NCBI GenBank assembly: GCA_946648015.1
Contig: CAMPCZ010000005.1
Location: 1-36,070 of the forward strand
Direction of reading: 5' to 3'
Length of the DNA stretch: 36,070 bases
Source of the DNA: an uncultured Clostridia bacterium
Lineage (GTDB): Bacteria > Bacillota > Clostridia > Christensenellales > CAG-1252
Shown: piece by piece, positions 13,761 to 24,380 of the stretch
Numbering within the stretch: the first letter of the stretch is position 1
How the letters are laid out: each line of letters starts with the position of its first letter
Translations under genes and position numbers: made by a program
Notes under the pieces: generated by a model
Told to the model about the DNA's origin: nothing
Database searches by the model: none
What the model saw: the letters and a program-made list of their open reading frames with translations, nothing else

Positions 13761-14224
13761 ACGTCTACGTCGTTGCCGTCGGCAAACTCAAAGAACAGTA
13801 TTGGCGCGACGCCATTGCCGAATACCAAAAGCGTTTGTCGCGCTATTGCCGCTTGGAGATAGTGGAAGTGGCCGAGAGCAAAAACACCTCGCGCGCCGCC
13901 AAGGATATAGCCAAAGCGCGCGACGAAGAGGCCGCCCGATTGCTGGCCGCCGTTCGCGGCAAGTGCGTCGTGTTGGATATGGGGGGCAAAGAGGCCTCCA
14001 GCGAAGACTTGGGTCAGTTGGTCAAGGAGGCGCAAGATAGGGGCGAGAGCCTCACCTTCGTCATAGGCGGATCGGACGGCTTGGGCAGGGCAGTGCTGGA
14101 GCGCGCCGACGTGTCGGTGCGTTTCGGACGCATCACCTTTCCGCACCAGTTGTGCCGCGTGGTTTTGACGGAACAGATCTATCGTGCTTTTTGCATCGCG
14201 TCGGGCACACCCTACCACAAGTAA
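13757..14224 (+). CDS. rlmH: 23S rRNA (pseudouridine1915-N3)-methyltransferase RlmH
   Basis: Methylates pseudouridine 1915 in helix 69 of 23S rRNA using SAM (SPOUT family). At 155 residues it is the usual length. The start at 13757 overlaps the CPBP stop (ATGA). The N terminus is NVYVVAVGKLKEQYWRDAI; VVLDMGGKEASSEDLG is typical; the SAM-binding knot carries FVIGGSDGLG; FPHQLCRVVLTEQIYRAFCI and the C-terminal GTPYHK are hallmarks. It is the last gene of the glyS transcript; its 3' end overlaps the converging minus gene by 13 bases, and I see no terminator in between. Confidence 0.97.
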   Translation: MNVYVVAVGKLKEQYWRDAIAEYQKRLSRYCRLEIVEVAESKNTSRAAKDIAKARDEEAARLLAAVRGKCVVLDMGGKEASSEDLGQLVKEAQDRGESLTFVIGGSDGLGRAVLERADVSVRFGRITFPHQLCRVVLTEQIYRAFCIASGTPYHK

Positions 14225-14898
14225 TCGTAGAGTAGGTGGTACAGTCCCGCCCAACAGGCGGCGTCGGCCGCGTCCAATCGCACGTCGCGGTGCGTGCTTA
14301 TTTCCCGTATGCCGAGTAGCGTATGTAGCCACACTGTGAGTTCCGCCGTCAGGCGGTTTTTTTGTGCCTCGGTGCCCACTCGATAGGCCTCGCCGAAGCT
14401 GAGCCGCTTGCCTTGCCACATAGGGGAGGGTAGCGACGACAGGTCTATGGGTTCGCCTGCCGCTCTATATAGGTGCAGATCGTCGTGTAGGTAGGCCTCG
14501 CCGCCATGGCAGGCCAGGTAGCAGGCCACCCCTTTGGGATAGGCGACCCGGTGCGCATTCGCCCACGGACATTCCCCTATCGCGTAGAGTGGGTCAAGGC
14601 CTTCGGCGGGCAAGTCTACGGCGGTTATTTCTCCTTGTAGCGATATGCTTTTGACCACTACGCCTTGGGGCGTGCTTTGCGCACCGTATAGCACGCGGCG
14701 GCTTGCCTCGATGCGTGCGTGCGGTTTGCCGCCACGGGGTGCCGCCCGAGCGCTCAGGTCTATCCAGCCCGCTTTGGCCAACGCGTCCACCGCGGATAAC
14801 ACCGTGCTCATGCTCAAACCGCTGTGTTGCTTAACGCACAGCTTGGTGCAGGGCTGGTGGCGGATGATGGTGCGCAAAACGAGGGCATGGCAGTTCAT
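14212..14898 (-). CDS. Short ROK-type regulator-like protein with N-terminal winged helix
   Basis: A 228-residue protein, start chosen at the ATG at 14898 (MNCHALVLRT) rather than the 15081 track start, which would run through the divergent gene. The first 60 residues form a MarR/ROK-like winged helix (LSMSTVLSAVDALAKAGWID, then a glycine-rich RGGKPHARIE wing). The next part (VVVKSISLQGEI) resembles the opening strands of a ROK domain, but the rest is too short for a full ROK fold (about 380 residues), and I see no sugar-kinase zinc motif. It faces the FAD dehydrogenase gene across 111 bases, so it could be a local repressor (inference). There is no Shine-Dalgarno; see leaderless finding. Confidence 0.65.
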   Translation of the reverse strand: MNCHALVLRTIIRHQPCTKLCVKQHSGLSMSTVLSAVDALAKAGWIDLSARAAPRGGKPHARIEASRRVLYGAQSTPQGVVVKSISLQGEITAVDLPAEGLDPLYAIGECPWANAHRVAYPKGVACYLACHGGEAYLHDDLHLYRAAGEPIDLSSLPSPMWQGKRLSFGEAYRVGTEAQKNRLTAELTVWLHTLLGIREISTHRDVRLDAADAACWAGLYHLLYDYLW

Positions 14899-14904
14899 TG
14901 CCTT

Positions 14905-14910
14905 ATTGTA
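14905..14910 (-). promoter_or_regulatory. -10 box of the ROK-like gene, six bases before ATG
   Basis: Minus-strand TACAAT preceded by GC, then AAGGCA, then the ATG at 14898. No convincing -35 at the right distance. The expected start point falls on the A of the ATG. Confidence 0.45.
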
Positions 14911-14994
14911 GCGCCAAGCGTTGCACGCATTTGGCACAAAAAGGGCGAAAGGGGCGAAAAATTGCCGATTTTGCTGCCTATTTGTACCTATATA

Positions 14995-15003
14995 TGCTAT
15001 AAT
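14995..15003 (+). promoter_or_regulatory. Extended -10 promoter of the FAD dehydrogenase, six bases before ATG
   Basis: TGCTATAAT: a TGn extension plus perfect TATAAT at 14998-15003, then GTGGGC and the ATG at 15010. No matching -35 at 17 bases. Transcription would begin on the start codon. Confidence 0.7.
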
Positions 15004-15009
15004 GTGGGC

Positions 15010-16545
15010 ATGGAAATCGTTAGCAATCTGACTATGCCGCTGGATGCAAACCAAGCGGCCGTACGCTCCGCCGCTTGCCATCGCTTGGGCTGGAAGGTGG
15101 GGCAGGTGCGCACCTTTGTGGTGTTGCGCCGTAGCGTTGACGCGCGCCGTATGCCCGTCAAATGGGTGTATACGGTGGGTTTATCGCGCGAGGTCGAGGC
15201 AGTGCCTTGCTATGCGCCCCGTGCGGCGCGCCCGCCGGAAATGCGCCCCGTTGTGGTGGGGTTTGGCCCTGCCGGCATGATGTGCGCTTTGTCTTTGGCC
15301 GAGTCGGGGTTGCGCCCCATCGTGCTGGAGCGCGGCGGCGACGTGGATACCCGCACCCAAAAAGTGCGCGATTTTTGGCAAAACGGCGTGTTGGACGAGC
15401 AGTGTAACGTGCAATTCGGCGAGGGTGGCGCCGGCGCCTTTTCGGACGGCAAACTCAATACCGGCACGGGCGACAAATGGATGCAACGCTACGTTTTGGA
15501 GACCTTCGTGCGCTATGGCGCCGATCCCTCTATCCTCTATGAAGCCAAACCCCACGTAGGCACCGACAAGTTGGTGGGTGTGGTGCGGGGCATACGCGAG
15601 CGCATACGTTCGCTGGGCGGCGAAGTGCATTGCAACGAGCCCGTGGTGGATATCGTCTCGTCGGCGGAGGGCGCGGTGCTTACTACGCCCGCGGCGCGCT
15701 ATACGACCCGCCACGCGGTGCTTGCCATAGGCCACAGCGCCCGCGATACCTACCGCTTGTTGCATAGCCGAGGCTACCTCATGGAATGCAAGGCGTTTGC
15801 GGTGGGATTGCGCGTGGAGCATTTGCAGGAGGACGTCAGTCGCGCGCTGTACAAAGAAGCATACGGACACCCATTGCTGCCGCCCGCCGACTACAAGCTG
15901 GTGTCGCACACCCCCTATGGCGGCGTGTATACCTTTTGTATGTGCCCCGGCGGCTACGTCGTGGCGTCTTCGGCCGAACGCGAAACGGTGGTCACCAACG
16001 GTATGAGCTATTCGGGACGCGACGGCGTCAATGCCAATGCGGCGGTGTTGGTGGGCGTTACGGCGGACGATTTGGCAGGCCGGCTATTCGGCGGCGTGGC
16101 TTTGCAGGAACAGTTGGAACGCTCGGCCTATCGCTTGGGCGGCGGCGACTATCGCGCGCCGGCGCAACGACTGGGCGACTTTGTGGCGGGGCGGCAAACC
16201 GTGGCTTTCGGCAAAGTGTCTCCTACCTATATGCCCGGCGTTACACCCGCCAGGCTCGACCAAAATCTGCCCTTTGCCCTGGCGCCGGCCATTCGGCACG
16301 CGTTTGGCGATTTCGGCCGAAAAATACGCGGGTTCGACGACGAGGACGCCGTGCTTACCGGCTTTGAAACGCGGTCGAGCGCACCTTTGCGCGTGTTGCG
16401 CGGCGACGACTATCGCGCGCCTACCGACCCGTGCGTCTATCCTTGCGGCGAGGGTTGCGGCTATGCGGGCGGCATCATGTCTGCGGCGACCGACGGGCTG
16501 AAAGTGGCCGAGGCCATAGCCTTGGACAACGGTGCGGAGGCATAA
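15010..16545 (+). CDS. FAD-dependent dehydrogenase, COG2509 family
   Basis: A 511-residue flavoprotein. An N-terminal domain (about residues 1-75, with VKWVYTVGLSREVE) precedes a Rossmann motif VVGFGPAGMMCALSLAESG near residue 80. The hallmark QFGEGGAGAFSDGKLNTG is near residue 135, and the C terminus holds CGEGCGYAGGIMSAATDGL, an FAD-binding closure. Length and motifs match COG2509, widely present in Bacillota with no settled function; reductase or dehydrogenase activity is inferred. The start is the ATG at 15010, directly after a strong extended -10, which makes the track start at 14824 impossible from this promoter. A minus-strand terminator follows. Confidence 0.88.
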   Translation: MEIVSNLTMPLDANQAAVRSAACHRLGWKVGQVRTFVVLRRSVDARRMPVKWVYTVGLSREVEAVPCYAPRAARPPEMRPVVVGFGPAGMMCALSLAESGLRPIVLERGGDVDTRTQKVRDFWQNGVLDEQCNVQFGEGGAGAFSDGKLNTGTGDKWMQRYVLETFVRYGADPSILYEAKPHVGTDKLVGVVRGIRERIRSLGGEVHCNEPVVDIVSSAEGAVLTTPAARYTTRHAVLAIGHSARDTYRLLHSRGYLMECKAFAVGLRVEHLQEDVSRALYKEAYGHPLLPPADYKLVSHTPYGGVYTFCMCPGGYVVASSAERETVVTNGMSYSGRDGVNANAAVLVGVTADDLAGRLFGGVALQEQLERSAYRLGGGDYRAPAQRLGDFVAGRQTVAFGKVSPTYMPGVTPARLDQNLPFALAPAIRHAFGDFGRKIRGFDDEDAVLTGFETRSSAPLRVLRGDDYRAPTDPCVYPCGEGCGYAGGIMSAATDGLKVAEAIALDNGAEA

Positions 16546-20922: not shown

Positions 20923-20951
20923 TTGACACTTGTGTGTCGGGCTGTTACAAT
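20923..20951 (+). promoter_or_regulatory. Sigma-A promoter of rplJ-rplL
   Basis: TTGACA (20923-20928), 17 bases, TACAAT (20946-20951), 11 bases after the rplA stop. The transcript begins with the L10 leader. Confidence 0.88.
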
Positions 20952-20957
20952 ATCATC

Positions 20958-21073
20958 GTTCATACAAAGACAGTAAGTGGCCTTGTGCCTTAAAGTTGCT
21001 TACCGAGGTGAATGTAAACATTTGATATGCTTTTACTGTCCTCTCGTCTTTGTATGGCGAGAGGATATTTTGT
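20958..21073 (+). promoter_or_regulatory. L10 leader (ribosomal protein autoregulatory element)
   Basis: GACAGTAA (20969-20976) pairs with TTACTGTC (21033-21040), enclosing a loop with the conserved CCGAGGTGAA (near 21003). An antagonistic hairpin CCTCTCG (21040-21046) with CGAGAGG (21058-21064) follows, then ATATTTTG, a weak terminator-like end. This matches the L10 leader of Bacillota, bound by L10(L12)4 to control its own operon. Confidence 0.82.
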
Positions 21074-21112
21074 ATAGCACCACTTTTGTGGAATCAATAT
21101 AGGAGGTAAATC

Positions 21113-23457: not shown

Positions 23458-23486
23458 TTGCTTTCGGTAGGCGGCTATGCTACAAT
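23458..23486 (+). promoter_or_regulatory. Promoter of the ATP-grasp gene, -10 box six bases before ATG
   Basis: TTGCTT (23458-23463), 17 bases, TACAAT (23481-23486) with a TGC extension. AGTGGT then separates it from the ATG at 23493, so transcription should start at the A of the start codon. The same architecture is seen at 15010 and 14898. Confidence 0.75.
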
Positions 23487-23492
23487 AGTGGT

Positions 23493-24380
23493 ATGAAACG
23501 CGCCCTCATTCTCAACAATGCCTATATGCAGTTGGATAGTTATCTCTATCAATCCCGACGCCTTGCCGAGGAGTTGGGTGCTTTGGGCGTGGAGACCGAC
23601 GTGCGGCGCAACGATTTTTTCGCCGTCGCCATAGATGACGCGGGGCACATAGACTTGCGCTTGGACAAGTACGATTTTTGTGTTTATTTGGACAAAGACA
23701 AGTACGTTCCCTATCTGTTGCAGGCCAAGGGCTTGCGGCTATTCAATAGTGCCGAGTCGGTAGAGGCGTGCGATGACAAGATGACCACGTTCGTGCGTTT
23801 GGCAGAGGCGGGCATTGCCGTGCCCTACACTTTGCCGGGATTGCTGTGCTTCGACAACGGTGCCGCCATTCCCGAGGCCGTGTATGCCGACGTGGAGGCA
23901 AGGCTCGGGTATCCTATGGTCGTCAAGTCGAGTTTCGGCTCGCTGGGCAAGGGCGTCTACAAGGTGGACGACAGGGCCGCGCTTTGCGACGTGCTCTCGC
24001 GGCTCAAATGCAAACCGCATCTCTTTCAGCGCTACGTGGGCACATCTTGCGGCCGCGACGTGCGCGTGCTGGTGATAGGCGGCGAGGTGGTTGCCGCCAT
24101 GCTGCGTCGCTCCGGCGGGGATTTTCGCTCCAACATCGAGTTGGGCGGTACGGCCACGCCCTATCGAGTGCCTGCCGCTCTTGCCGATGAGTGTCGCCGC
24201 ATCAGCGAATTGTTGGGGCTGGACTATTGCGGCGTCGACTTCTTGTTCGGGCCCGACGGCTTTGTGCTTTGCGAGGTCAATTCCAATGCCTTTTTCGGGG
24301 GGCTTGAGCGCACGACGGGCGTCAATGTGGCGCGATGCTATGCCGAATATATTTGTCGCACCGTCTACGGGAATATGTAG
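23493..24380 (+). CDS. RimK-type ATP-grasp ligase-like protein
   Basis: A 295-residue cytoplasmic protein; the start at 23493 is set by the promoter directly upstream. The ATP-grasp core has LGYPMVVKSSFGSLGKGVYK near residue 140 (glycine-rich ATP loop), LFQRYVGTSCGRDVRVLVIG near residue 180, and the metal-binding VDFLFGPDGFVLCEVNSNAF near residue 250. The layout matches the RimK/LysX/CofF group, which adds amino acids to a carboxylate. The N-terminal pre-ATP-grasp domain (about residues 1-90) is unlike any I recall, so the substrate is unknown. No partner gene gives a clue. Confidence 0.8.
   Translation: MKRALILNNAYMQLDSYLYQSRRLAEELGALGVETDVRRNDFFAVAIDDAGHIDLRLDKYDFCVYLDKDKYVPYLLQAKGLRLFNSAESVEACDDKMTTFVRLAEAGIAVPYTLPGLLCFDNGAAIPEAVYADVEARLGYPMVVKSSFGSLGKGVYKVDDRAALCDVLSRLKCKPHLFQRYVGTSCGRDVRVLVIGGEVVAAMLRRSGGDFRSNIELGGTATPYRVPAALADECRRISELLGLDYCGVDFLFGPDGFVLCEVNSNAFFGGLERTTGVNVARCYAEYICRTVYGNM

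Follow-up and report, generated by a model that had tools for sequence, protein, structure and literature searches.

Does a clostridial genome in which Shine-Dalgarno (SD) initiation dominates also keep genes whose messenger RNAs (mRNAs) begin directly at the start codon? Most descriptions of such leaderless initiation come from Actinobacteria, Deinococcota and archaea. The question is raised by a divergent gene pair in a 36,070-nucleotide (nt) stretch of DNA from an uncultured Clostridia bacterium (the window, which is contig C5 of a genome of 1.74 Mb in 161 contigs), where each ATG stands exactly six bases downstream of a -10-like hexamer. We suggest that both genes are very probably leaderless, and the best reading of the evidence is that a conserved, sigma-A-dependent leaderless minority coexists in this lineage with the dominant SD initiation.

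Results

An earlier note on this DNA, made from the sequence alone, had described a -10 box, six bases and an ATG on both strands, and on re-reading the sequence this layout proved exact. The gap between the two ATGs is 111 bp. The lack of an SD that the same note had claimed was also borne out: no SD-like motif was found 4-16 nt before ATG 15010 or ATG 14898, and the AAGG of the minus gene almost touches the start codon, which is too close for an SD role. The features of the pair are as follows.

14998-15003, plus strand: TATAAT, the plus gene's -10 hexamer, preceded by an extended -10 TG at 14995-14996 (read in the sequence; same 6-nt spacing in relatives)
15004-15009, plus strand: GTGGGC, the 6-nt discriminator; given the usual -10 to +1 distance, transcription is predicted to start on the A of the ATG, at 15010
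15010-16545, plus strand: predicted leaderless gene for an FAD-dependent oxidoreductase, 511 amino acids (aa), PF21688 FAD-depend_C (Pfam match; aligned N terminus)
14905-14910, minus strand: TACAAT, the minus gene's -10 hexamer as read on the complement (TANNNT at the exact spacing in 18/18 family members examined, this one included)
14899-14904, minus strand: AAGGCA, the 6-nt discriminator; transcription is predicted to start at 14898 or 14899
14212-14898, minus strand: predicted leaderless gene for a regulator of the winged-helix type, 228 aa; the ROK repressor fold is predicted for a full-length relative (profile and structure searches)

The frames of both genes remain open upstream of these ATGs, the open reading frames (ORFs) beginning at 14824 on the plus strand and at 15081 on the minus strand. 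Homologues whose N termini begin farther upstream, the objection that the earlier note had itself raised, were not found when this was checked. The N termini of the plus-gene homologues align from the Met at 15010, with upstream in-frame stops in L032, L035 and L038, and in five minus-gene homologues (L062, L065, L066, L067 and L070) the ATG is preceded, 12-21 nt upstream, by an in-frame stop. Because the homologous N termini align at these Mets and in-frame stops lie upstream, the objection fails, and on these comparisons ATG 15010 and ATG 14898 are the true, conserved starts.

The plus gene product matches PF21688 with an E-value of 2e-68. The minus gene is predicted to encode a ROK-type DNA-binding regulator. 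The AlphaFold2 model of its full-length relative L066 (mean model confidence, pLDDT, 90) consists of a winged-helix DNA-binding domain followed by a sugar-kinase-like domain, and its top Protein Data Bank matches in Foldseek are ROK proteins, including Mlc, MecR2 and Lmo0178 (E ~1e-16, TM score ~0.7); the fold was tested on this relative and not on the shorter protein of the window. The Pfam ROK model did not match the minus-gene family, which gave only weak winged-helix matches, one of them above cut-off (HTH_24 in L038). The regulator has 331-337 aa in genus g3, 315 aa in genome G003 and 219-232 aa in the other copies of the window's own genus; a large part of the kinase-like domain has been lost from these shorter copies. 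It was found in 18 of the 20 genomes of family f1, and elsewhere in our sample of the order it was not found at full length.

The layout is kept well beyond the window. All of the first ten minus-gene homologues, only ~22-46% identical to the protein of the window (identities computed for these ten), have a TANNNT hexamer (TAGAAT, TATGAT, TATAAT, TATACT or TACAAT), 6 nt and ATG. The same holds for 7/7 further homologues from a profile search, examined after the pattern was known, which brings the family to 18/18 across three genera with the window's gene included; these sequences are related, and hence do not represent 18 independent events. Throughout the family the 6-nt spacing is constant while the hexamer and its flanks vary. 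For the plus gene, TATAAT-N6-ATG is present in all six copies of the own and sister genus (the window, G001, G002, G003, G005 and G006), as in the TATAAT-GGAAAT-ATG of G005, and by coordinates the divergent pair is kept in G002, G003 and G005. In genus g3 the plus-gene homologue is located elsewhere and has no box, several members showing a purine-rich, SD-like sequence before the ATG, though the regulator of this genus retains its box. Most homologues have no SD before their ATGs.

The scan of coding-sequence starts that the earlier note had proposed was run on pattern counts over the whole genome and on fetched stretches covering ~43% of it (sample GC content 55%); the stretches came first from contigs with hits and then from contigs without, and are not a strictly random sample. 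Spacings of N10-13 served as the control, replacing a reversed-pattern control that was dropped because it is biased by the start codons. TATAAT-N6-ATG occurs at 37 sites, whereas the control spacings total 37, or ~9 each, a 4-fold excess (P = 8e-9). Coding ORFs open at 31 of the 37 N6 sites (10/12 in the fetched stretches and 21/25 of the remaining sites); in the fetched stretches the 10 at N6 compare with ~2 at each of the other spacings. With degenerate boxes, 19 starts among 552 genes have spacing 6 where 4.7 are expected, and scaling up gives a leaderless set of perhaps 35-60 genes, roughly 3-4%. Of the 20 candidates in the sample, a set that includes both genes of the pair, seven have a perfect TTGACA at a distance of 17-18 nt. 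The coding starts at N6 include those of smpB, dnaX, uvrC, trmL and maf, whose NCBIfam profile matches begin at residues 1-9, the trmL match being slightly below its cut-off. Thus the scan finds the box at N6 enriched genome-wide, and finds it in none of 282 SD-led ATG starts, which implies two disjoint classes of start.

A T at -1 was also considered as a signature of transcription start (30 of the 37 N6 sites) and was rejected, as 195 of the 282 SD-led starts have it too. This TATG context, found before 69% of SD-led ATGs, is a strong general preference (L071-L110).

Orthologous starts keep the arrangement. Within the fetched part of G002, box-N6-ATG is kept in the orthologues of 6/7 candidates of the window's genome versus 1/86 other genes (Fisher P = 6e-8). 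The dnaX box stands at N6 in G000, G001 and G002, and in G004 before GTG (L328, TATAAT-ATAATC-GTG, a possible leaderless GTG start). It recurs in other families, namely in G021 (f3), G046 (f28) and G050 (f32), though many others have an SD. The smpB box is at N6 in G000, G001, G003 and G005, in G002 and G006 it is 1-3 nt off this position, and genus g3 does not have it. There (L294-L307), a terminator-like element, GGGGGC...GCCCCC-T7, precedes the smpB start by at most ~15 nt, and in most cases the gene has neither a strong SD nor a -10 box.

The ratio of N6 to control counts has a median of 1.23 in 121 genomes of this order and exceeds 1.5 in 36% of them, as against a median of 0.75 and 2.8% in the 143 genomes scored from the rest of the phylum (Mann-Whitney P = 3e-20, a value that overstates the number of events because members of one family are not independent of each other). 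The excess is patchy, being high in families f15, f1, f3, f6, f32 and f24 and with ratios below 1 in f4, f13, f16, f23 and f33; G053, of the same order and family f4, has no box-N6 start in 323 genes. The ratios below 1 in f4, f13 and f23 suggest loss or avoidance of leaderless starts beside rich families. The order is probably the Christensenellales of GTDB: its member G357 (family f4) has 82% identity over 1.56 kb to Candidatus Pullichristensenella stercorigallinarum, a genus that we take to belong to Christensenellales.

The window holds a third leaderless candidate, which lies ~40 bp past the stop of the upstream gene.

23481-23486, plus strand: -10 hexamer TACAAT, with TGC before the box and TTGCTT 17 nt upstream
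23493-24380, plus strand: candidate gene for a RimK-like ATP-grasp protein, 295 aa, TACAAT-AGTGGT-ATG

Two other divergent pairs in the genome have TATAAT-N6-ATG on both sides, with 84 bp (L088 5406-6976, contig C44) and 140 bp (L283, contig C111, 2130 minus and 2270 plus) between the ATGs. Positions 20946-21080 of the window (plus strand) match Rfam RF00557, the leader of ribosomal protein L10, with 64.7 bits, which marks an ordinary leadered ribosomal-protein operon.

Discussion

Relatives keep the same layout, which points to a real minor class of leaderless genes. The leaderless reading proposed in the earlier note gains support from a layout that is enriched genome-wide, disjoint from SD-led starts and kept at orthologous starts. 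In the standard sigma-A promoter six bases separate the -10 hexamer from +1, and this would place the first base of the RNA on the A of the ATG. We therefore envisage that the housekeeping RNA polymerase would read each -10 box and start at, or within one base of, that A, the minus-gene RNA possibly one base before it. The resulting mRNA would have neither a 5' untranslated region nor an SD, and the ribosome would initiate on the AUG at its 5' end, presumably through the 70S/start-codon pathway known from other leaderless mRNAs. The ROK-type protein probably acts on the divergent promoter region in its own genus. The pair would belong to a genome-wide minority (31 coding starts with a perfect TATAAT) that has been kept by selection.

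Several points weigh against this interpretation. The minus promoter has no recognizable -35 (1/6 matches) and no TG; the TATG context of many candidate starts is not diagnostic, given the T at -1 in 69% of SD-led starts; one of the seven candidates with a testable orthologue (L073:11538) is probably not truly leaderless; and the genes may have an additional transcript with a leader, begun farther upstream. One alternative is that the promoters are real but that translation proceeds mostly from longer, leadered transcripts begun upstream, with the leaderless RNA as a minor by-product. Most potential leaderless transcription start sites (TSSs) in Clostridium phytofermentans were reported as such by-products (PMC5171806), and with only 111 bp between the ATGs, transcripts of either gene could begin inside the other. 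However, a longer mRNA would here still be without an SD, which is lacking before these ATGs and those of most homologues, and SD and box-N6 are mutually exclusive genome-wide (0/282); we consider this alternative unlikely.

It might also be argued that the box is kept for a role as a DNA signal, for instance within an operator, and stands at this distance from the ATG only incidentally, since operators are expected where the minus gene is DNA-binding and the pair is divergent, as in G002, G003 and G005. Yet the spacing holds at exactly 6 nt although different TANNNT words serve as the hexamer and the flanks diverge, the genus g3 regulator keeps the box without an adjoining plus gene, and the only inverted repeat found in the window's 111-bp gap is weak (77%), which together make an operator very improbable. 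Least credible of all is chance, whereby AT-rich intergenic DNA near starts would yield TATAAT-like words at N6 through base composition. This could be suspected for AT-rich genomes of the order (for example G003 and G020), where the N6 count does not exceed the control, but in the window's genome (sample GC content 55%) it is four times the control (P = 8e-9), 31/37 sites open coding ORFs, and 18/18 members of the minus-gene family have the box. As judged from these counts, chance is refuted for the genome-wide class, and by conservation for both genes of the pair.

A conserved leaderless minority would mean that one clostridial order harbours a clear leaderless class, patchy by family and reaching core genes. 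Families f1, f3, f6 and f15 on the one hand, and f4, f13 and f23 on the other, offer a natural comparison for how leaderless starts are gained, kept and lost beside a strong SD system, and annotation tools tuned to the SD may misplace such starts. It is tempting to speculate, though we hold it doubtful, that some families carry a selected leaderless set (a family-specific regulator; core dnaX, smpB and uvrC) in which leaderlessness itself is functional and not passively retained, for example by letting translation continue when SD-dependent 30S initiation is limited.

Among known systems, the minus gene resembles the ROK-family repressors Mlc, MecR2 and Lmo0178 in the winged helix and sugar-kinase-like domain predicted for its relative L066, and differs from them in that most copies of its genus are short (219-232 vs 315-337 aa) and have no Pfam ROK match. 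As to the starts, Zheng et al. (2011) described TA-led leaderless genes in Actinobacteria and Deinococcota (PMC3160421), which likewise have a TANNNT -10-like box directly before the start and no SD; there they make up ~20-40% of genes, whereas here they are ~3-4% of an SD-dominated clostridial genome, with near-consensus TATAAT. The same survey predicted leaderless genes in 56/209 Firmicutes genomes, on average 4.2% and concentrated in Lactobacillales and Mycoplasma (PMC3160421). These are also a low-fraction class in SD-dominated Firmicutes, with an extended TG before the box in Lactococcus, but belong to a different clade, and the text of the survey makes no mention of Clostridia. A search of the literature with partial coverage turned up no study of leaderless genes in Christensenellales. 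TSS maps of Clostridia report 2-3% of TSSs as potentially leaderless (PMC9045289), 4% in C. phytofermentans (PMC5171806) and 15 leaderless genes in C. difficile (PMC7438776). These fractions (2-4% of TSSs, or 15 genes) are comparable to ours and, together with our scan of the phylum, fit the earlier note's view that leaderless initiation is rare in Clostridia-type genomes. In C. phytofermentans, however, the potentially leaderless starts generally have a ribosome-binding site and an upstream TSS (PMC5171806), whereas here there is no SD and the layout has been kept between species and between genera. As a kind, leaderless genes are already known; what is new is the lineage and the depth of conservation.
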